A stretch of DNA of 64,000 nt from a bacterium (GTDB lineage: Bacteria; Oederibacteriota; CAKKQC01): positions 279,896 through 343,895 of the forward strand of contig CAKKQC010000006.1 of NCBI GenBank assembly GCA_919901855.1, given 5' to 3'. Below the pieces are notes generated by a model. That model worked only from the letters and a program-made list of their open reading frames with translations, did not search any database and was not told the DNA's origin. The position numbers and the translations under genes are program-made. This document shows, in pieces, positions 17,417-42,738 of the stretch (the stretch's first letter is position 1; every line of letters starts with the position of its first letter).

Positions 17417-18226
17417 ATGGGGTGCCGATCGTGGATGCCGTGGGTGGCCGGGGCCGCGCTGATGGCGGCGGCGCCCGCGCGCCCGGTGGAGGCGCCGGCC
17501 GCGGTATCTACTTCCCCCGTAGACGGGGGAGAGGTCGCGATCGTCGAGCACCTGGGGGGTACCGTCCCCCTGGACGCCGTATTCCGCGACGAACAGGGGC
17601 GGCCCGTGACGCTCCGGAGCCTGATCGACCGGCCGACGATTCTGGTCCTCGTCTACTACCGCTGTCCCGGCGTCTGCTCGCCCCTCATGAGCGGCCTCGT
17701 CGAGGTGCTCGACAAGGTGGCCCGCGTGCCGGGCCGGGATTACCGGATCATCTCCCTGTCCTTCGCCGAGACCGAGAAGCCGGCGCTCGCGGCCGCCAAG
17801 AAGGCCAACTACCTCGCCGCGTTCCGCAGGCCGTTCCCGGCCGACGCCTGGCGGTTCCTGACGGGAGCGAAGGAGCCGATCCGGGCCGTGACCGATTCCA
17901 TCGGGTTCCGGTACCAGCTCGTGGACGGCGAGTACGCGCATCCCGCGGTCCTCGTCTTCCTTTCGCCGCAAGGCCGGATCGTCCGGTACATGTCGGGGCT
18001 CACGTTCCTGTCCTTCGATGTCCACATGGCGATCCTGGAAGCCGCCGCCGGGCGGATCAGCCCCTCGATCCGCGGCGCGCTCCTCTACTGTTACCGCTAC
18101 GATCCGAAGCGGCAGGCCTACGCGTTCAACATCCTGCGGGTGGCCGGCACGTCGGCGGCGGCGGGGGTTTTCCTGGTCGTCGGCGCCCTGACCTGGGTCT
18201 CCGCCCGGAGGAGCCGCCGTGGCTGA
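17417..18226 (+). CDS. SCO1/SenC-family copper chaperone with C-terminal membrane anchor
   Basis: A 269-residue protein that delivers copper to the CuA centre of cytochrome oxidase. The thioredoxin-like domain carries the copper ligands CPGVC (C83, C87) and a His (H175) in YAHPAVLVFL. It begins with a signal-like hydrophobic segment (VAGAALMAAAPA) and ends with a membrane helix (AAAGVFLVVGALTWV). An in-frame ATG at 17405 is less likely because it lies within the possible -10 TAAGAT at 17401. The stop overlaps coxA, so it leads the oxidase operon. Confidence 0.92.
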   Translation: MGCRSWMPWVAGAALMAAAPARPVEAPAAVSTSPVDGGEVAIVEHLGGTVPLDAVFRDEQGRPVTLRSLIDRPTILVLVYYRCPGVCSPLMSGLVEVLDKVARVPGRDYRIISLSFAETEKPALAAAKKANYLAAFRRPFPADAWRFLTGAKEPIRAVTDSIGFRYQLVDGEYAHPAVLVFLSPQGRIVRYMSGLTFLSFDVHMAILEAAAGRISPSIRGALLYCYRYDPKRQAYAFNILRVAGTSAAAGVFLVVGALTWVSARRSRRG

Positions 18227-19826
18227 CGCCGTCGTGACCCCCGCCGCGCCATGGCGCGGTTACCTCGACGCCCCCGACGGGCGCCGGGGGATCCGGTCCT
18301 GGATCTTCTCCACCGACCACAAGCGCATCGGGGTCCTGTACCTCTGGTCGGTGCTGGCGTTCTTCGCCGTCGGAGTCGCGCTCGGGCTGCTCATGCGGCT
18401 CGAGTCCATCGCGCCCGGCCCCACGATCATGTCGGCCAGGGCCTACAACGCCTTCTTCACGCTGCACGGCGTGATCATGATCTTCCTGTTCATCATCCCG
18501 GCCGTGCCGGCGTCGATGGGGAACTTCTTCCTCCCGCTCCAGATCGGGGCCCGGGACGTCGCATTCCCGCGGCTCAACCTGCTCTCGTGGTGGGTGTACG
18601 TGACCGGGGCGGTCCTCGCCCTGCTCGCCATGTTCGCGGGCGGGCACCCGCCCGACACCGGCTGGACGTTCTACGTGCCCTACTCGGTGCGCACGGACAC
18701 GAACGTGTCCCTGGCCGTGCTTGCGGCCTTCGTGCTCGGGTTCTCGTCGATCCTGACGGGGCTGAACTTCATCACGACCGTGCACACGATGCGGATGAAG
18801 GGCATGGGCTGGTTCCGGATCCCGCTCTTCACGTGGGGGATCTACGCCACCGCCTGGGTCCAGGTCCTGGCCACGCCCATCATCGCCGTGACCCTCCTGC
18901 TCGTCGTGCTCGAGCGCGTCGCGCACCTCGGGCTCTTCGACCCCGTCCGGGGCGGCGACCCCCTCCTGTTCCAGCACCTGTTCTGGATCTACTCGCACCC
19001 GGCGGTCTACATCATGATCATCCCGGCCATGGGCATCATCTCCGAGGTGATCCCGGCGTTCAGCGGCAAGCGGATCTACGGCTACCGGGCCATCGTGTAC
19101 TCCAGCCTCGGGATCGCGTTCGCCGGCTACCTCGTATGGGGCCACCACATGTTCACGAGCGGGATGAGCGACACCGCCCGCTGGATCTTCTCGTTCCTGA
19201 CCTTCATCGTGGCGGTGCCCAGCGGGGTCAAGGTCTTCAACTGGGTGGCCACGCTCTACAAGGGGTCCATCGACCTGTCCGCCTCCCTCCTGTACGCGCT
19301 CTCGTTCATCTTCCTGTTCTCGATCGGGGGGCTGACGGGGCTCGTCAACGGCGCGCTCGCGGTCAACGTGCACGTGCACGACACCTACTGGGTCGTCGCC
19401 CACTTCCACTACGTCATGTTCGGGGGCACGGGGTTCGCCGTGTTCGCGGGGCTCCTTTACTGGTTCCCGAAGATGACCGGGCGGATGGTCCCCAAGGCCC
19501 CGGCGATCGTGGCGTGGTTCCTCATGTTCGCGGGGTTCAACATCCTGTACCTGCCCATGTTCGTCCTCGGGTGGATGGGCATGCCCCGCCGCTACTACGA
19601 CTACCTGCCCGAGCTCCAGCCCCTGCACGTGATGGCCACGGTCGGGTCGTGGATCCTCGCGGCGGGGCTGGTCGTGCTGGCCGCGACGCTGCTGCGGGCC
19701 CTCCGCCACGGTGACCCGGCCCCCGCGAACCCCTGGGGCGCGCGCGGGCTGGAGTGGCAGACCCCGTCGCCCCCGCCCACGGAGAACTTTGAAATTGAGC
19801 CGGTTCTCGGGGATGAGCGGCCGTGA
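18219..19826 (+). CDS. ctaD: Cytochrome c oxidase subunit I, A2-type haem-copper oxidase
   Basis: The catalytic 12-helix subunit of a caa3-type oxidase, 535 residues. Haem and CuB ligands are visible: H83 (LHGVIM), H260 with the cross-linked Tyr264 in YSHPAVY, the CuB pair H309/H310 in WGHHMF, and H395/H397 in VAHFHYV. YSHPAVY replaces the XGHPEVY of A1 enzymes, so the D-channel glutamate is absent. This defines the A2 subfamily known from Thermus and Rhodothermus. The GTG start overlaps the sco stop, and the 3' end overlaps coxC. Confidence 0.97.
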   Translation: MADAVVTPAAPWRGYLDAPDGRRGIRSWIFSTDHKRIGVLYLWSVLAFFAVGVALGLLMRLESIAPGPTIMSARAYNAFFTLHGVIMIFLFIIPAVPASMGNFFLPLQIGARDVAFPRLNLLSWWVYVTGAVLALLAMFAGGHPPDTGWTFYVPYSVRTDTNVSLAVLAAFVLGFSSILTGLNFITTVHTMRMKGMGWFRIPLFTWGIYATAWVQVLATPIIAVTLLLVVLERVAHLGLFDPVRGGDPLLFQHLFWIYSHPAVYIMIIPAMGIISEVIPAFSGKRIYGYRAIVYSSLGIAFAGYLVWGHHMFTSGMSDTARWIFSFLTFIVAVPSGVKVFNWVATLYKGSIDLSASLLYALSFIFLFSIGGLTGLVNGALAVNVHVHDTYWVVAHFHYVMFGGTGFAVFAGLLYWFPKMTGRMVPKAPAIVAWFLMFAGFNILYLPMFVLGWMGMPRRYYDYLPELQPLHVMATVGSWILAAGLVVLAATLLRALRHGDPAPANPWGARGLEWQTPSPPPTENFEIEPVLGDERP

Positions 19827-20431
19827 CGGAGGAGGGCGGGCACGGAAATGCCCGGGCGTCCCGGATGGGGATGTGGCTGTTCCTCTTCACCGAGATGCTC
19901 CTCTTCGGGGGTCTCTTCCTCGTCTACGCCGTCTACCGGCGCGGCCACCCGGAGGCGTTCCACGCGGCCTCGGGGGAGCTGTCGCTCGCGTTCGGGGCGG
20001 GGAACACGATCCTCCTCCTGACCAGCAGCCTCTCGATGGCCCTCGCAGTCGCGGCCTTCGAGCGCGGTCTCATCTCCCGGGCCCTGGCCCTGATCGGGGG
20101 AACGATCGGGATGGGGCTGCTCTTCCTGGTCAACAAGGGGCTGGAGTGGTCGGTCAAGTTCGGGCACGGGCTCTACCCGGGGGCGGCCGTGCTCGAGGCC
20201 CGGGACCCGGGGGAGCGGCTGTTCTTCAGCCTCTACTTCGCGATGACGGGCCTCCACGGGCTCCACGTCCTCGTCGGCGCGGGCGTGCTGGGCGCCGTCG
20301 TCGTGCTCGTGCGCCGGTCCGGCGCGACGGCGGAGCGGCACGGCCCCCTCGTCGAGAACGCGGGGCTCTACTGGCACCTCGTGGACATCGTCTGGATCTT
20401 CCTGTTTCCGCTCTTCTACCTGATCACATGA
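19823..20431 (+). CDS. ctaE: Cytochrome c oxidase subunit III
   Basis: A 202-residue membrane subunit with five predicted helices, the short form lacking the first two helices of longer subunits III. It contains the family stretches MGMWLFLFTEMLLFGGLF, FAMTGLHGLHVLVG, and the C-terminal YWHLVDIVWIFLFPLFYL. It stabilises subunit I and may serve oxygen entry. GTG start and stop each overlap their neighbours by 4 bp. Confidence 0.96.
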   Translation: MTEEGGHGNARASRMGMWLFLFTEMLLFGGLFLVYAVYRRGHPEAFHAASGELSLAFGAGNTILLLTSSLSMALAVAAFERGLISRALALIGGTIGMGLLFLVNKGLEWSVKFGHGLYPGAAVLEARDPGERLFFSLYFAMTGLHGLHVLVGAGVLGAVVVLVRRSGATAERHGPLVENAGLYWHLVDIVWIFLFPLFYLIT

Positions 20432-20703
20432 GACCCGAAGGTCCGTCCTCGCGCGCCCTCGCTCTTGTTTGGGCGACGCTCGTGGCGCTCACGGGAGTGA
20501 CCATCGCCGTGTCGCGGCTGCGGATTCCGGGCTGGAGCGTCCCGGTCGCGCTCGGCGTCGCGGCGGCGAAGTCGTCGCTCGTGCTGGCCGTCTTCATGCG
20601 GCTGCGCGACGAGGACCGGGCGTTCAAGGTCATGCTCGGCGTCGCGGTCTTCACGATGGCCGTGATCCTCGGGCTCACCTTCACCGACGTGGCGTTCCGG
20701 TGA
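20428..20703 (+). CDS. Cytochrome c oxidase subunit IV (prokaryotic type)
   Basis: A 91-residue, three-helix membrane protein located between subunits III and II. It contains AAAKSSLVLAVFMRLRDEDR and ends in a third helix, as in CtaF/COX4_pro proteins. The ATG overlaps the subunit III stop, and its own stop overlaps the GTG of coxB. Sequence identity of such small subunits is low, so the call rests on size, topology and position. Confidence 0.85.
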   Translation: MRPEGPSSRALALVWATLVALTGVTIAVSRLRIPGWSVPVALGVAAAKSSLVLAVFMRLRDEDRAFKVMLGVAVFTMAVILGLTFTDVAFR

Positions 20704-21614
20704 ACCCCCTGGTCAGGATCCTGGGCGGTGGCTCCGCGCTCCTCGTGGACGCCACGTTCCTGTTCATCCTCGGCATCTCGTTCCTGTTCCTCGGGATCAT
20801 CACGGTCCTCATGGTCTGGTTCGTCTGGCGCTACCGGAAGAGCCGCCATCCGGTGGCCGAGGAGGTGAAGGAAAGCGTCTGGCTCGAGGTGGCGTGGACG
20901 CTCATCCCGACGGTCCTCATGCTCGCCATGTTCGAGGCCGGGTTCGAGGGGTTCCAGTGGATGCGGGCGGTGCCCGCGGACGCGATGACGGTCACGGTCT
21001 CGGCGCAGATGTGGAAGTGGACGTTCGTCTACGGGAACGGCCGGCGGTCCCCGGACCTCGTCGTGCCGTCCGACCGCCCGATCAAGCTGCTCCTGCACTC
21101 GACCGACGTCATCCACGGGTTCTACGTGCCCGCGTACCGGATCAAGGAGGACGTCGTGCCCGGCCGCGAGAACTACCTCTGGTTCCAGCCCGACACGGAG
21201 GGCACCTTCGAGATCATGTGCTCGTCCTACTGCGGGGAGCGCCATTCGTACATGCGGGCGAACCTCCGCGTGATGCCCGGCAAGGAGTTCCGCCGCTGGT
21301 ACGGGGCGAAGACCGGTAAAAGGTCCGCCCTCGGCGCGCGGGGGATCATGGAGGACGCGGGGTGCCTCGTATGCCACTCGCTCGACGGCAGCCGGGCGCC
21401 GGGCCCCACGCTCAAGGGGATCTGGGGCCGGCGCGAGACGGTGGCGAGCGATGGCGTGGAACATGCCGTCAACGTGGACGAAGCGTACATCCGCCGGGCG
21501 ATCCGCGAGCCGTCCGCCGACGTCGTCAAGGGCTTCCGGACGATCATGCCGGTGGAGGCGCTAACGGAGGAGGAACTCGCCATTCTCGTGCGCTACCTCC
21601 GGGCGCTGCGATGA
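20700..21614 (+). CDS. ctaC: Cytochrome c oxidase subunit II fused to cytochrome c (caa3 type)
   Basis: The 304-residue subunit receives electrons at the CuA site. Two N-terminal helices are followed by the cupredoxin domain with STDVIHGF and the CuA motif C174-SSY-C178-GER-H182-SY-M185. A C-terminal cytochrome c domain has CLVCH (C222, C225, H226) and a likely axial Met in RTIMPVEALTEEEL. The fusion identifies a caa3 enzyme. The GTG at 20700 overlaps the subunit IV stop. Subunit II sits last among the structural genes, whereas it is usually first. Confidence 0.96.
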   Translation: MNPLVRILGGGSALLVDATFLFILGISFLFLGIITVLMVWFVWRYRKSRHPVAEEVKESVWLEVAWTLIPTVLMLAMFEAGFEGFQWMRAVPADAMTVTVSAQMWKWTFVYGNGRRSPDLVVPSDRPIKLLLHSTDVIHGFYVPAYRIKEDVVPGRENYLWFQPDTEGTFEIMCSSYCGERHSYMRANLRVMPGKEFRRWYGAKTGKRSALGARGIMEDAGCLVCHSLDGSRAPGPTLKGIWGRRETVASDGVEHAVNVDEAYIRRAIREPSADVVKGFRTIMPVEALTEEELAILVRYLRALR

Positions 21615-36423: not shown

Positions 36424-39393
36424 GTGGAGATAGGTCAGGTCGATCGCGTCCTTCCCGGCCGTGAGAATCGCAATATTGAAAGAACGTCCCTCTCGTTGCT
36501 GGCCGCGGTCTGCATCCTCCTGATCCCGGCTGCCACTCAGGCAGTCACCGCCCTGTCCGTCCAGAAGAATCAGTTCCCGGCGTCCGGATCGATCCTGAAT
36601 GCCGGCGACGCGATCCGGTATCAGATCGTGGTGGCCAATGTCGGGGACGCGACTATCACCGACCTCAGAGTGACCGACACGCTGGCGGCCGAGGTGACCC
36701 AGTTGACGACCGCCCAGGACGACACGCGGTTCACGGTGGCGGTCACGCAGGCGCCCGGCGGCGGCACGCGGTACGTGTGGAGCAACACCGTTGCGCAGGG
36801 CCTGGCTCTTGAGCCGGGGCAGGTCTTCACCTTTACGGTGACTGGAGTCGCCGGAAGCGTATGCACCGCGATCCCGCGCGAGAACACTGCCGTCGCCGAC
36901 GGACGGAGTTGGTCGATTGTGGCGCCGATGGTCGTGAGCCCGGCCGTCTCGTTCACGGGCCAGCCCCACGCGGTCGGCGTCTCGATCGTGAAGAGCCAGC
37001 TCCTGCCGCTGACGGCGACGGTGAGCACGGGCGTGCCCGTCAGGTACCAGATCGTGGTCACGAACACGGGCGCGGCGACGCTGAGCGATCTCATCGTGGT
37101 CGACACGCTCCAGGTCGAACTCGAGGCCGTGACGGCGACGGCGCCCGGGCTGGTGGTCGGCCTGCCGACCAACCTCGCGGGCGGCGGCACGCGTTGGGTG
37201 TGGGGCGGGGCCGGGCTGGCGTTCCTGCCGGGGACAACGATGACGATAACGATCGATGCGAAGACGGGATCCGTCGCCGGGCTGAGAAGCGTGAGCAACA
37301 CGGCTTTCGTGGCGGCGGCTAATGCATGCGGGCTCGTTGCGACCGGGACCTCCTCGCCCGCGACCGGGTTCGACATCGATCCGGCGAATCCCACGGTCGC
37401 GGTCGCCGTGATTCAGACGCCTCCGTCTGGATCGATCCTCCAGTTGGGCGACAAGATCGTCTACACGATCGTCGTGGTCAACACGAGCGGGGCAACGCTG
37501 GACAACATCACCGTGACCGACACGATCGCGGCCGAGGTGACCCTGCAGAGCGCGCAGCAGGATAGCAGCCTCTTCGCTGTTGCCGCCACGAGCGTCGCGA
37601 GTGGCACGCGGTACGAGTGGCGCAACATCATCGCGGGCGGGCTGACCTTCGGGCCGGGGCAGACCTTCAGCTTCACCGTGACCGGGTACGTCGGCCACGT
37701 CTGCTCGTCTACCGTGCGGGACGACTACGCGGTGGCCGAGGGGTCGAGCCTGGGCGTGACGGCGCCGACGGTGGTAAGCCCTCTGGCCCGGCTCCGCTCG
37801 AACCCGCTGGTTCCGGGCGTGACCGTCGTCCACACCGTCTCGCCCGCCTTGCCGCTGAGCGGAGGCCCGGTCAACTACTCGATCATGGTCACGAACACCG
37901 GGGCTGAGACGCTCTCGAACCTGGAGCTGACGGATACGATCCCTCCCGTGGCCCAGTTCACGGCCACGCAGACAGGCGGCGACGTGGTCCCGGTGGTCGC
38001 GGGGAGCCTCTATGACTGGACCCTCGGGGCCCTGGTGCCGGGGGAGACGAGGACATTGTCCATCTCCGGCGTGGCCGGCGACTGCTACACCGGGATCGTG
38101 TCCAGCACCGCGATGCTGACAGGCGACACGCCATGCTCCTACCGGATCACGCAGCTGGCGACCGCATTCTTCCCGCTTCAGGCACCCGCGCCGAACCTGA
38201 CGGTGTGGGCGGACTTCTTCGCGGACGATCCCACGCGGACGCTGCACACGCAACTGCCGCAGATGGGGATGCCAATTTACTGGAAGCTGGTCGTAGCGAA
38301 CACGGGTGGGAAACCTGCTGACGACATCATCATCGTGGATTCCCTGCCCTCGCTTGACGCGTCGATAGACAAGATCGAGATCCCGGCGAACGGAATGCCC
38401 GCGAGTCTGGCGTATCCGACCCCGGTCCTGGCGGACTCGGCGCCAACCTCGACGGTGTTCTTCACCACGACAGGAACGGGCGGCCTCCTCCTCGCCGTGC
38501 TCGGCGGTAGCGGGTTCTCGCTTCAGCCGGGCGAGTCGGTGACGCTGTACATGGACATGACGCTGAAGATCTCAGACGTAGGTTCCAGATACGTGGTCAA
38601 CGCCGTTCAGGCAACAATCACGAACCCGTGCACCGGATCGAGGCTGGCGACTCCTCCCATTCTGACAGTGATCGGCTGGGGCGGGTGTGGGGTCACGGTG
38701 ACAGTCAAGGTCTCCAATACGTCAGGAGAGATCGTGCGGAGGTTCGATCCATTCTGTGTCAGCCGACCGCCGTCCCGCCTGGATTTCGGCTACACGGCAA
38801 CGGGCTCGTGCGCGTCGTGGACCGGGGACCTCACCGAGCCCTTCTCGCCAGACGGAGACTGCCATAATGACCTCCTCAAGTTCGTGTTCCCGGAGCTATT
38901 CATCGTGTTCGGCCAGCCGTTCGACCGCATCTGGTGGGACGGGAAGAACAACCAAGGATACATCGTGCCGAACGGTACGTACACCGTCAACGTGGATTCC
39001 GTTGACATCCAGACGGGGGCGCCCATCATCCTCCAGCGAACCATCGAGGTCCTCGTGGGGCCGAGTCCGCGCGTGGACGGCTGGAAGGTGCCATATGGCA
39101 AGCTCGTCATCGCCCCCAACGTCCTTGACCGCCGGTCGATCCAGCCTAACGTCCAGTTCGGGATGCGGGGGAAGGCGAACGGTACGGTCGAGATCAGGAT
39201 CTGGGACGAAGCCGGATCGCCCGTCCGCACGATCGCGGTCACGCTGGACGGGCAGGGGGCGGGGGTCGTGCTCTTCGATGGCCGGGGCGTCGGGGGGGCG
39301 GTGCTGGGACCCGGTCTCTACTGGGTGACTGCTACCGGTTCGGGCGTATCGGACCGGCAGGGCTTCATGGTCGCAGGGAGGCGTGGGAGATGA
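36424..39393 (+). CDS. Large secreted protein: DUF11-like repeats plus gliding/FlgD-like C-terminal domains
   Basis: A 989-residue protein with a signal peptide (LSLLAAVCILLIPAATQA). It carries about five DUF11-like beta modules starting near residues 41, 184, 323, 463 and 589. Each has a variant of IRYQIVVANVGDATITDL and several have GGTRYVWSN. Then comes a segment with FSPDGDCHNDLLKF, like the calcium-binding SPDGDGxND of gliding-motility (CHU_C-like) domains. The last ~80 residues (NVQFGMRGKANGTVEIRIWD...LYWVTATGSGVSD) resemble a FlgD-Ig domain. It is probably surface-exposed. The stop overlaps a shorter paralogue. Confidence 0.75.
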   Translation: MEIGQVDRVLPGRENRNIERTSLSLLAAVCILLIPAATQAVTALSVQKNQFPASGSILNAGDAIRYQIVVANVGDATITDLRVTDTLAAEVTQLTTAQDDTRFTVAVTQAPGGGTRYVWSNTVAQGLALEPGQVFTFTVTGVAGSVCTAIPRENTAVADGRSWSIVAPMVVSPAVSFTGQPHAVGVSIVKSQLLPLTATVSTGVPVRYQIVVTNTGAATLSDLIVVDTLQVELEAVTATAPGLVVGLPTNLAGGGTRWVWGGAGLAFLPGTTMTITIDAKTGSVAGLRSVSNTAFVAAANACGLVATGTSSPATGFDIDPANPTVAVAVIQTPPSGSILQLGDKIVYTIVVVNTSGATLDNITVTDTIAAEVTLQSAQQDSSLFAVAATSVASGTRYEWRNIIAGGLTFGPGQTFSFTVTGYVGHVCSSTVRDDYAVAEGSSLGVTAPTVVSPLARLRSNPLVPGVTVVHTVSPALPLSGGPVNYSIMVTNTGAETLSNLELTDTIPPVAQFTATQTGGDVVPVVAGSLYDWTLGALVPGETRTLSISGVAGDCYTGIVSSTAMLTGDTPCSYRITQLATAFFPLQAPAPNLTVWADFFADDPTRTLHTQLPQMGMPIYWKLVVANTGGKPADDIIIVDSLPSLDASIDKIEIPANGMPASLAYPTPVLADSAPTSTVFFTTTGTGGLLLAVLGGSGFSLQPGESVTLYMDMTLKISDVGSRYVVNAVQATITNPCTGSRLATPPILTVIGWGGCGVTVTVKVSNTSGEIVRRFDPFCVSRPPSRLDFGYTATGSCASWTGDLTEPFSPDGDCHNDLLKFVFPELFIVFGQPFDRIWWDGKNNQGYIVPNGTYTVNVDSVDIQTGAPIILQRTIEVLVGPSPRVDGWKVPYGKLVIAPNVLDRRSIQPNVQFGMRGKANGTVEIRIWDEAGSPVRTIAVTLDGQGAGVVLFDGRGVGGAVLGPGLYWVTATGSGVSDRQGFMVAGRRGR

Positions 39394-41036
39394 CTGCGAT
39401 GCGCAGATTCCCGATATCCCTGATACAGGTCTTCGTCTTGGCAGGCCTTACCCTTCTGCCGTCTGTTGCCCCGTCTGCTCCGGCCGTTTCCGTGGCGATT
39501 GTTCAGGCTCCGGCGTTCGGCTCGCCGCTGAAGCCGGGTGCCTCGATTCGGTACATGATCGTCGTCGAGAACACGGGCGACGTCCCGATCACGGATCTCA
39601 CCTTGACTGACACGGTGGCGGCCGAGGTCGTTCAGCAGGTCCCGGCACAAGACGATGCGCAGTTCACGCTTGCGGTCACCCAGTTGTCCGCAGGCGGCAC
39701 GCGGTACGTCTGGAGCAACAGCACCCCGGGTGCGCTGACACTGGCACCCGGCCAGTCGTTCACGTTCACGCTCACGGGCTTGAGCGCGACCTTGTGCGAC
39801 TTGTTCACTTGCGTCAATGCCGCCGTCGCGGAAGGTGCAAGCACCGGCACGCCGACGCCGACTGTGACGTCCAACTCGGTGGCCGCCACTTTCTACAATC
39901 CCCCGGACCTGACGATTGTCACTCGCGTCTCGCAAGTGAGCTCGACCCTCTTCTCCACGATCATCCTCGCGAATGTCGGCACGGTGGCCGTCGACGATAT
40001 GAGCATCATGATTCCGCCGATGCTCCACATGAGCATTCCGCCTGGCGGGGCACCTTCGGGAGCGGTCTGGGCGGCGGTCGTGCCCATGACGGTGACAGCC
40101 AACGGAATGGTGTCGGTTGGCGGTCCGGGAATCCTGCTGGAGCCGGGACAATCGGTGACGGTCCTTACGGACATGGCTCTCAGCCCCGATCCAGGAGGAT
40201 GCCTGGGGTCGCCGCCTCCGGGGCCGTGGAGCGGCTACGCCTACCTTGTCGCCAGGAACCCGTGTTCGGGATCCTACCGGGGATACATGCCGCCTCCCGG
40301 TTCCCTCATCCATCCAACCGATTCATGGGATACGGCAGGAACGATGACGGTGACGATTGCAGATGCGAACGGCCATATCGTGAGGCGCCTCGGGCCGGTC
40401 ACGATCCGCTGTGAGCCGGGGGAGATGCAGTTCAGCTACACGGCGGCCGGGACATGCGGAACATGGACGAGCGACCCGTCGGCGCCATTCTCTCCGGACG
40501 GCGACTGTCACAACGATATCCTCAAGGTCGTCTTCCCGGGCTTCCTGCCGAACAACCAGCCGTTCGATGGCCTGTGGTGGGACGGCAGGGATGACTCGGG
40601 CCACTTCGTGCCCAACGGCACCTACACCCTCGCGGAGGAGCCGGCTGGGCTCGCGATCTGGCGGGTCGAGCCCGCCCGGCGATCCGTCGAGGTGGCCATG
40701 GGGGCGGCATACGATGTGGCGCGGTGGCGCGTTCCCTACGGCAAGCTAGTGATCGCGCCGAATTCTATCGACCGAACGGCGGCCGGGCCGCCGATCCAGT
40801 TCGGGATGCGGGGGAAGGCGGGCGGGAGCGTGGACGTCAGGATCTGGAACGAGGCGGGGGAACCCGTGCGCTCGTTCCAGGTCACGCTGGATGGGCAGGG
40901 CGCCGGGGTCGTAACGTTCGACGGCCGGAACGGGGCCGGCAAGGCGCTGGGGCCGGGCTTGTACTGGGTGACGGCGAAGGGATCGGGCGTGGCCGACCGC
41001 AAGGGCTTCATGGTCGCCGGGAGGAGGAGGCAATGA
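39390..41036 (+). CDS. Shorter paralogue of the DUF11/FlgD-like secreted protein
   Basis: A 548-residue protein with a signal peptide (FVLAGLTLLPSVAPSAPA), one clear DUF11-like module (about residues 30-170, including AGGTRYVWSNS), and the same C-terminal pair as its neighbour: FSPDGDCHNDILKVVFPG and QFGMRGKAGGSVDVRIWNEAG...GLYWVTAKGSGVADRKGFMVAG. It looks like a tandem duplicate that has lost or never gained the extra modules. ATGA overlaps occur on both sides, so stoichiometric expression with the PorV-like protein is likely. Confidence 0.75.
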   Translation: MTAMRRFPISLIQVFVLAGLTLLPSVAPSAPAVSVAIVQAPAFGSPLKPGASIRYMIVVENTGDVPITDLTLTDTVAAEVVQQVPAQDDAQFTLAVTQLSAGGTRYVWSNSTPGALTLAPGQSFTFTLTGLSATLCDLFTCVNAAVAEGASTGTPTPTVTSNSVAATFYNPPDLTIVTRVSQVSSTLFSTIILANVGTVAVDDMSIMIPPMLHMSIPPGGAPSGAVWAAVVPMTVTANGMVSVGGPGILLEPGQSVTVLTDMALSPDPGGCLGSPPPGPWSGYAYLVARNPCSGSYRGYMPPPGSLIHPTDSWDTAGTMTVTIADANGHIVRRLGPVTIRCEPGEMQFSYTAAGTCGTWTSDPSAPFSPDGDCHNDILKVVFPGFLPNNQPFDGLWWDGRDDSGHFVPNGTYTLAEEPAGLAIWRVEPARRSVEVAMGAAYDVARWRVPYGKLVIAPNSIDRTAAGPPIQFGMRGKAGGSVDVRIWNEAGEPVRSFQVTLDGQGAGVVTFDGRNGAGKALGPGLYWVTAKGSGVADRKGFMVAGRRRQ

Positions 41037-41938
41037 GATACAGGGCACTGGGAATCATGGTCGCGGGGCTGGCCGCCATGCCGGCGGCCGCGGAGGTGAC
41101 GACGGGGGCGGCCTTTCTCAACCTGCCGCTGAGCGTGCGCCAGACCGGGATGGGCGGCGTGGCGCCAGGGGGGCAGGATGTGATGCGCGCCTGGTCGAAC
41201 CCGGCCATGCTCGCGGGCCAGCGGACGCGGGGGGAACTCGCGATCGACGGGGCCTCCATGTTCGGCGGGCACGAGAGCACGCTGGCGGCGGGCGCGGGAT
41301 GGGTGCCGATATCCCCCTGGACGATCGGCATCTTCGCGTGCGCCTACACGGCCAGCCTCCCTGAGGTCAACGGCGCGGGCGACCGGCTGGACACGAGCCT
41401 CGACCGGAGCCTGACGGCCGGCGGGATCGCGGGCGCTTTCCAGTCCGGCCGGGTGCGGGCCGGCATGCTTCTCAAGGGCATGACGGACCAGGTATTAGCC
41501 GACCGGGCCTCGACGGTCGCCATCGACGTCGGATGGGTGGCGGCGTTGGGGCCGTTCGAGCTGGGTGCCGCCGCCCGGAATCTCGGGTTGAGCCTGGACC
41601 GGGCCACCGGCGCCTATGCCGGCGGCGTCGAGCTTCCGGTCGAGGCGAGAGGCGGGCTGGCATGGCGGGAACCTGACTGGCATCTCACCGTGGTGGCGGA
41701 GTTTGTCCAGATCCGTGGCCGGAGGGCAAGAACTGCAGCGGGTGCCGAATGGATGACGCTCGACCGGTTCGCCCTGCGGACGGGCTTCGAGGACGCCGAA
41801 GACATCACCGGGCGCTTCACGCTCGGACTCTCGGCCTCGTTCAGCGACTTTGGTCTCGACTACGCGATGGCGGCCCACCCCATCGGCCCGTCGCACCGGC
41901 TGAGCCTCACGTACGCGTTCGGGCCTGCCGGCCGGTAA
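41033..41938 (+). CDS. PorV/PorQ-like outer-membrane protein
   Basis: A 301-residue protein with a signal peptide (LGIMVAGLAAMPAAAE). It has the PorV/PorQ family opening: SVRQTGMGGVAPGGQDVMRAWSNPAML, in which early-gene products place the GMGG and NPA motifs in a FadL-like barrel. The rest is beta-strand such as GAFQSGRVRAGMLLKG, ending in LSLTYAFGPAGR. In Bacteroidota, PorV shuttles type IX secretion substrates, so its coupling to two large secreted proteins with C-terminal domains is meaningful. Whether the rest of a type IX system exists is not visible here. Confidence 0.8.
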   Translation: MRYRALGIMVAGLAAMPAAAEVTTGAAFLNLPLSVRQTGMGGVAPGGQDVMRAWSNPAMLAGQRTRGELAIDGASMFGGHESTLAAGAGWVPISPWTIGIFACAYTASLPEVNGAGDRLDTSLDRSLTAGGIAGAFQSGRVRAGMLLKGMTDQVLADRASTVAIDVGWVAALGPFELGAAARNLGLSLDRATGAYAGGVELPVEARGGLAWREPDWHLTVVAEFVQIRGRRARTAAGAEWMTLDRFALRTGFEDAEDITGRFTLGLSASFSDFGLDYAMAAHPIGPSHRLSLTYAFGPAGR

Positions 41939-41944
41939 CCGATT

Positions 41945-42367
41945 TCAATCGAACTTATGGATGGCCAGGAACTCCGCGGGAGATAGGACCGTCACCGGAG
42001 CGCGGGGGAAGTGGCCGGGATCGCGGGAGATGATGCACGGGACCTGGGCGTGCACGGCGGAGTGGAACTGGATGGCGTCCTCGAAGTCGGCGATCCCCGA
42101 GTCGATGGCCTGGGTCAGGATCTGCGACGTCAGATCCACGGGCTTGAAGACGTCGCGGAGGAGTCGCACGGCCTTCTCGGCGGCTGGCCGGCCCCCGTAC
42201 CTGCGAACGATGTAGTAGCAGTTGGTGAAGCTGATCGCCGCGACATGCCCTTCGATCTTGCCGGATTCGGCGAGGGTCCAAATGCGCATTGCGTCGGCGT
42301 AGAAGCTCTTGCGTTCAGCCAGGACATCGAGCAGGACGTTGGTATCGAGCAGGGCTTTCGTCGTCAC
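41945..42367 (-). CDS. VapC-type PIN-domain toxin (second module)
   Basis: A 140-residue PIN protein with ALLDTNVLLDVLAER at the N-terminus, the Glu/Asn-bearing SFTNCYYIVRRY, ADFEDAIQFHSAV and the C-terminal Asp in CIISRDPGHFP. It is a probable Mg2+-dependent RNase toxin. The GTG start overlaps the antitoxin stop. The gene converges with the PorV-like gene, the stops being 6 bp apart. Confidence 0.88.
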   Translation of the reverse strand: MTTKALLDTNVLLDVLAERKSFYADAMRIWTLAESGKIEGHVAAISFTNCYYIVRRYGGRPAAEKAVRLLRDVFKPVDLTSQILTQAIDSGIADFEDAIQFHSAVHAQVPCIISRDPGHFPRAPVTVLSPAEFLAIHKFD

Positions 42368-42615
42368 CGACCGGAGCGTCCGGAGAGGGCTTCCTCGAGC
42401 AGTTCGCGGTCGGTCTTGTTCGACGGCAGTTTGACGAGCCCGGATGCGCGACGCGTGACGGGACCGGGTTGGTCCTTGTCCCGGCGGCCGGTGAGGGTGG
42501 CGCCGAGGAAGCGCGAGAACATCGACGAGAGGGAAGTGCCTTCCTCCTTGGCAAACTTCTTCGCCTCCCTGAGGAGGTCCTTGTCAGCGCTAAGGGTCAG
42601 TTTCGTCGTGCGCAT
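42364..42615 (-). CDS. VapB-type antitoxin (DUF6364-like)
   Basis: An 83-residue protein with an N-terminal ribbon-helix-helix-like stretch: MRTTKLTLSADKDLLREAKK, then AKEEGTSLSSMFSRFL. The C-terminal tail is polar and basic. This matches DUF6364-type antitoxins paired with PIN toxins. The ATG at 42615 has an SD (GGAGGA) just upstream. It should neutralise the downstream VapC and repress the operon through the repeated GTACGTAT sites. Confidence 0.82.
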   Translation of the reverse strand: MRTTKLTLSADKDLLREAKKFAKEEGTSLSSMFSRFLGATLTGRRDKDQPGPVTRRASGLVKLPSNKTDRELLEEALSGRSGR

Positions 42616-42628
42616 GCCGGTTCCTCCG

Positions 42629-42677
42629 ATACGTACTGTCTGATTACGATTATACGTACAGGGAGGCGTCTTGGCAA
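42629..42677 (-). promoter_or_regulatory. Promoter and repeated operator of the second VapBC module
   Basis: On the minus strand: TTGCCA (42677-42672), 17 bp, TATAAT (42654-42649). Two exact GTACGTAT repeats lie at 42659-42652, overlapping the -10, and 42636-42629, spaced 23 bp apart, about two helical turns. Each contains the palindrome TACGTA. This arrangement fits cooperative binding by a ribbon-helix-helix repressor. Confidence 0.78.
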
Positions 42678-42738
42678 CCGTCATCGCGGCCGCGGAGGAC
42701 CCTCATCCGGGTCATCGGGGGCGGACTGGACGAGCAGC

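Follow-up and report, generated by a model that had tools for sequence, protein, structure and literature searches.

A probable type IX-like secretion unit of two cargoes and a barrel, among about 55 such units in a candidate-phylum genome

The three-gene locus described here lies in a window of 64,000 nucleotides (the whole stretch of DNA that was analysed) and belongs to a set of about 55 units in its genome, each joining cargo to a barrel, that probably serve a T9SS-type (type IX secretion system) system. With an SprA translocon gene, these predicted cargo-plus-PorV units make up a large and, as far as we found, undescribed set, in which the window locus is an ordinary member. Based on homology, gene order, and numbers, the set is a variant of type IX secretion, to which export, recognition, and anchoring of the cargoes may be ascribed. 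For the locus itself, we consider it probable that its genes form such a unit within a type IX-like secretion system, and its cargoes would be exported, recognized, and anchored in this way. The host lineage is a Firestonebacteria/Goldiibacteriota-like candidate phylum, outside the groups with a reported T9SS.

The three-gene locus

The locus encodes two putative surface proteins (cargoes) followed by an outer-membrane barrel:

36424..39393, + strand: cargo 1, 989 aa; a signal peptide followed by five DUF11-type modules, an SPDGDCHND/FlgD-like segment, and at the C-terminus a T9SS/FlgD_ig-like domain (GTG start at 36424, exact start uncertain)
39082..39390, + strand: C-terminal sorting-type domain of cargo 1
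39390..39393, + strand: ATGA start-stop overlap of cargo 1 and cargo 2
39390..41036, + strand: cargo 2, 548 aa; a single DUF11-type module, then the two-domain C-terminal region also seen in cargo 1
40725..41033, + strand: C-terminal sorting-type domain of cargo 2, a 7-strand sandwich in the model
41033..41036, + strand: ATGA start-stop overlap of cargo 2 and the barrel
41033..41938, + strand: outer-membrane barrel, 301 aa; PorV/PorQ-like, modelled with 14 strands

The first-pass annotation had described three genes coupled by ATGA overlaps, and indeed all three frames are open on the + strand and both overlaps are present. It also had the two cargoes differing in the number of DUF11 modules, which agrees with five stretches in cargo 1 and a single weak one in cargo 2 by Pfam. 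Pfam places FlgD_ig in both cargoes, and both begin with signal peptides, as judged by eye. The cargoes do share their C-terminal two domains, the last of which forms the very end of each, though the description "almost completely" was somewhat overstated: identity is 57% over 232 aa and 72% over the last 100 aa. This likeness is far above chance (BLASTP E=3e-105), and the two are mutual nearest relatives by signal domain. The two window cargoes are thus a duplication inside the unit, with one barrel in common. The structure model of the upstream SPDGDCHND segment is too poor for use (pLDDT 30-46).

Cargo-barrel pairs across the genome

The genome searched is a 4.68-Mb draft, 93% complete. With the 231-aa C-terminal region of cargo 2 as query, 46 places in the genome were matched, and an iterated profile matched 68 genes, 59 of which carry the domain within 12 residues of the C-terminus (genes called around the matches). 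The first-pass annotation had proposed looking for further proteins with this ending and had named, as the case against its reading, a domain confined to the two proteins and a genome with no secretion apparatus; instead, at least 59 proteins end in the domain and an SprA gene is present. These cargoes are diverse, including Kelch, subtilase, fn3, NHL, and DUF11 proteins, with sizes up to more than 5000 aa.

The NCBIfam model PorV_fam has 68 matches in the genome, corresponding to 58 genes with at least 15 over the cut-off, while the sole match in 14 control genomes was in a Bacteroides and below the cut-off. Paralogue profiles add 8 divergent barrels, for at least 66 in the genome. Most of the 58 (48) have a gene with this ending as their immediate same-strand predecessor; in 38 cases the ending was recognized by profile, and in 10 it is of a second class with YPNP/APGVYL motifs. 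The cargo/barrel overlap is exactly 4 nt in 24 of the 48 pairs, a count that took a later start for the window barrel, the true overlap of which is 4 nt too. Two further barrels are separated from a cargo by one gene. The 8 extra divergent barrels are all directly behind a gene ending in the domain as well, so 56 of 66 barrels are paired in total; with less than one pair expected by chance, chance pairing of cargo and barrel was rejected. Given at least 66 barrels, of which 56 come immediately after a cargo, a dedicated barrel for each cargo or small cargo group (two cargoes at this locus) appears to be the rule in this lineage.

Unpaired barrels, which could serve as a general PorV, also exist in the genome. 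Among the 18 cargoes first counted as lacking their own barrel, 8 have a divergent barrel directly behind them. The idea that cargoes without their own barrel are one separate signal class was weakly supported (9 versus 4.5 expected, a result reached in about 4% of permutations). Deeper sampling of two distant genomes in the phylum placed 16/25 and 11/23 of the sampled barrels behind a cargo (27/48 by profile), a lower rate because unpaired conserved barrels exist there. In other genomes, pairing is less frequent among the top-scoring barrels (16/40).

Identity of the barrel

The match of the window barrel to PorV_fam spans the whole model and scores 54 bits (E=1.8e-14), where the curated cut-off is 90. 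A profile of 26 paralogue barrels finds as its best PDB match the PorV of the SprA-PorV complex (1.5e-26), with FadL-type channels much later (TbuX at 3e-7, others weaker). In the structure model (pTM 0.75), the window barrel has 14 strands, and its best fold matches are the PorV chains 8gl6_F and 6h3i_F (Z 27.8 and 26.8), with FadL nearly tied (Z 26.4). Its 14 strands and SNPA motif recall FadL-type small-molecule transporters, which are 14-stranded barrels with an NPA motif in an N-terminal hatch, but PorV has this fold too. No match to the PorP/SprF family (PF11751, TIGR03519) was found for the window barrel in Pfam or NCBIfam. Both profile and predicted fold therefore uphold the earlier assignment of the third protein as PorV-like; several barrels match PorQ.

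Additional C-terminal domains distinguish many of the barrels. Most window-class barrels have a CsgG/LpoB-like C-terminal domain and the window barrel is without one: its CsgG/LpoB/DUF3280-like domain is lost or was never present. In the window-class barrels that have it (e.g. L082:9828-11246), the CsgG/LpoB/DUF3280-like end carries a conserved EKANMDKVLAEQAFQQ motif. Other barrels bear OmpA, TPR, or fn3 domains, with OmpA on two and TPR on another. In L087:11693-14044 and L070:6390-8423, PorV-like barrels are fused to a C-terminal OmpA peptidoglycan-binding domain, and one of the two also has FlgD_ig. By analogy, the OmpA fusions suggest anchoring to the cell wall; PorE has been proposed to anchor PorP to the cell wall (PMC9143113).

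Identity of the C-terminal domain

A profile of 29 signal domains matches FlgD Ig domains first (5e-10). The PorZ (4.4e-5) and PorU (1e-4) signal domains come next, and HBP35 and RgpB match weakly; WD-40 and related entries on this list reflect repeat composition, with no single stretch that is significant. The flagellar hook cap FlgD itself was rejected as an identity, as the Ig-like domain alone matches, far below the FlgD equivalog cut-off. In the model of the cargo 2 domain, the confident part (residues 152-225) is a sandwich of seven strands, counting a short preceding strand, and known T9SS signals are seven-strand Ig-like sandwiches (PMC11285876). Its best VIA-align matches are the C-terminal domains of PorU and PorZ (Z 9.9 and 9.8), with many Ig-like domains close behind (Z of unrelated rows 9.5). 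Of the second signal class, with YPNP and APGVYL motifs, 11/12 signals match TIGR04183, below its cut-off. One cargo of the genome exceeds the Pfam PF18962 cut-off. The suggestion that the shared domain may be a sorting signal thus gained ground, in that profile and predicted fold relate it to the PorU/PorZ signals; a sorting role would follow from this relationship.

An SprA homologue and its spread across lineages

The genome encodes an SprA homologue of 1951 aa that exceeds the TIGR04189 cut-off of 200 (263.5 bits, 2.9e-78) and matches Flavobacterium johnsoniae SprA (6h3i) in the PDB at E=8e-19 in a single-sequence search. The first-pass annotation had listed sprA among the homologues to look for, and directly behind the gene found here is a cargo-PorV pair: the next two genes encode a 709-aa cargo ending in the domain and then a PorV-like barrel, with a 4-nt overlap. 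The order SprA-cargo-barrel is repeated in the nearest named relative (L159).

Within the phylum, SprA was found in 40/45 genomes and PorV_fam in 45/45. One member (G040, 99% complete) has 28 PorV_fam matches and no SprA at 1e-10, from loss, an assembly gap, or a missed match. Among named relatives, the closest SprA is in a bin labelled Coatesbacteria (65% identity); Firestonebacteria, Goldiibacteriota, and FCPU426 follow in that order, and after these Elusimicrobia, Aerophobetes, Cloacimonadota, and others. In Firestonebacteria, SprA has cargo-barrel pairs beside it, and contigs of Aerophobetes and Elusimicrobia also have such pairs near SprA. The cargo-PorV pair on the SprA contig of Aerophobetes (L180:6952-9784) is a better model case than the window locus: its signal domain is closer to the PorZ model (4e-16), and its barrel is over the Pfam PorV cut-off.

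T9SS has been described as restricted to Bacteroidota (PMC10202324, PMC4793230), or as possibly present in other FCB phyla and absent elsewhere (PMC11285876). In the literature on PorV with FlgD, PorV in candidate phyla, and T9SS in Elusimicrobia, we found no such units described. The earlier proposal of a secretion route not described for this lineage therefore holds as far as we found, with secretion, sorting, and shuttling predicted.

Motor, ring, and sortase components

Searches for the remaining core parts had no known carrier genome among their controls. With that reservation, GldM was not found in the genome itself, GldL and GldN were over the cut-off in 0/45 genomes of the phylum, and GldL was found in 0/28 other SprA-bearing genomes. 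These are the porL/M/N homologues that the first-pass annotation had proposed looking for. A C25 peptidase, as in the PorU sortase, was not found in the genome, again with no positive control, and matches to PorU are to its signal domain alone. Because no known carrier genome served as positive control, absence of the motor parts and of C25 is not proven.

Correlation between signals and barrels

Across 47 pairs, distances among signals correlate strongly with distances among barrels (Mantel r=0.67, against at most 0.14 in 5000 permutations), and the correlation for distant pairs alone is 0.54. All 13 window-class signals go with one barrel cluster, and all 11 APGVYL-class signals with another. 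Two other genomes each give r=0.62; between these two, r=-0.09, and this cross-genome correlation thus gave no sign of a universal signal-barrel code across the phylum. As the correlation is found within but not between genomes, units expand within lineages and stay together, and duplication of whole units explains the correlation without any specificity. The data are compatible with matched recognition or simple co-duplication alike.

Comparison with known systems

The system resembles the Bacteroidota T9SS in its SprA homologue over the TIGR04189 cut-off, in barrels whose best solved relative is the PorV bound to SprA, in a 7-strand cargo end related to the PorU/PorZ signal domains, and in one signal subclass with the YPNP...GVY motif of TIGR04183. 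It differs in scale and parts: in place of one or two barrels there are at least 66, most of them paired with a cargo gene, and GldL, GldM, GldN, and the PorU protease were not detected here (no positive control). Most type A cargoes in Bacteroidota share one PorV, whereas the barrels here appear to be dedicated.

The closest parallel is SprB, which has its own PorP-like SprF, one of 10 PorP-like proteins in F. johnsoniae (PMC9143113). In both SprB-SprF (type B) and the units described here, the cargo gene adjoins its own FadL-type barrel gene, several pairs occur per genome, and collection from SprA with anchoring is proposed. However, the units here have a PorV-like barrel and a FlgD_ig/type A-like signal in place of the CHU_C type B one, and pairs are about five times more numerous. 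PorZ-PorQ of Porphyromonas gingivalis is also similar, in that the signal domain of PorZ ranks with the best matches and PorQ is matched by several barrels; the uncleaved C-terminal domain of PorZ, a surface protein, stays bound to its own PorV-like barrel (PMC10202324). PorZ-PorQ is, however, one component pair of an attachment complex and not a genome-wide cargo scheme.

Proposed mechanism and alternative explanations

In the mechanism we propose, the two DUF11 proteins and the barrel precursor would enter the periplasm via Sec, given their signal peptides. The C-terminal Ig-like domain would act as a sorting signal, taking each cargo to the single SprA-type translocon encoded elsewhere in the genome; homology indicates both signal and translocon, and the two would presumably interact. 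The PorV-like barrel would bind the cargo C-terminal domain at the SprA side opening and draw the cargo out. By comparison with PorV and SprB-SprF, the barrel would most likely stay on the cargo as its outer-membrane anchor. A bolder version of this reading is a motor-less type IX-like system (no GldLM motor, no GldKN ring), in which each surface protein has its own PorV-like barrel, one SprA serves dozens of matched pairs, and the arrangement is widespread in candidate phyla outside the Bacteroidota group; we put this forward tentatively, as possible but somewhat doubtful.

Several findings count against a type IX reading: the parts known to power and process T9SS export are missing or unrecognised, T9SS signals match the C-terminal domain no better than FlgD Ig domains do by profile, the C-terminal fold is a common Ig-like one, the window barrel is below the PorV_fam cut-off, FadL fits almost as well, the signal-barrel correlation is absent between genomes, and the nearly complete G040 has PorV matches with no SprA match. 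The barrel could serve solely as a surface anchor that later holds its own cargo in the outer membrane, as SprF does for SprB, with the cargo passing SprA alone or with a general PorV, for which the unpaired barrels are candidates; the OmpA, TPR, and CsgG/LpoB-like barrel ends would then tie the cargo to the cell wall or periplasm. Type B cargoes are indeed held by PorP-like barrels, with sprB adjacent to sprF (PMC9143113), and such ends do occur: CsgG/LpoB-like on most window-class barrels, OmpA on two barrels, and TPR on another. However, the barrels group with PorV and not PorP/SprF by sequence and fold, and the window barrel itself lacks a cell-wall domain, which makes this account unlikely.

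We regard as highly unlikely a generic FlgD/Ig fold with no sorting role beside FadL-type small-molecule channels, the pairing being a co-duplicated surface-protein/channel operon. FlgD_ig as best Pfam match, the closeness of FadL structures to PorV in score, and the lineage-specific signal-barrel correlation all fit such an operon, yet Kelch, subtilase, NHL, and DUF11 cargoes have only this end and the following barrel in common, the same pair is behind the SprA gene here and in the nearest relative, and the signal domain reaches PorU and PorZ by profile and fold. The barrels might instead be export pores for their own cargo, as a two-partner system with SprA serving few clients; one barrel per cargo, overlapping genes, and the many PorV matches retained in G040 without an SprA match would suit this. 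Barrels of the FadL/PorV fold, with 14 strands and an N-terminal hatch, do not, however, leave room for folded cargo, and the gene order SprA-cargo-PorV agrees with a PorV mode, so that export through the barrels themselves appears most improbable.

Implications and neighboring genes

The presence of SprA, PorV, and signals across a separate candidate phylum, and of SprA also in Elusimicrobia, Aerophobetes, and others, would make T9SS older than so far assumed and would show which of its parts are essential. If the motor is really missing, the power source of T9SS export becomes testable. The about 55 matched signals and barrels in one genome would also be a natural set for learning PorV cargo recognition.

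Elsewhere in the window, a VapBC-like pair (PIN-domain toxin and small antitoxin) is predicted directly downstream of the barrel gene, at 41945-42684 on the - strand. A putative heme-copper oxidase gene cluster at 18219-21614 suggests aerobic respiration.
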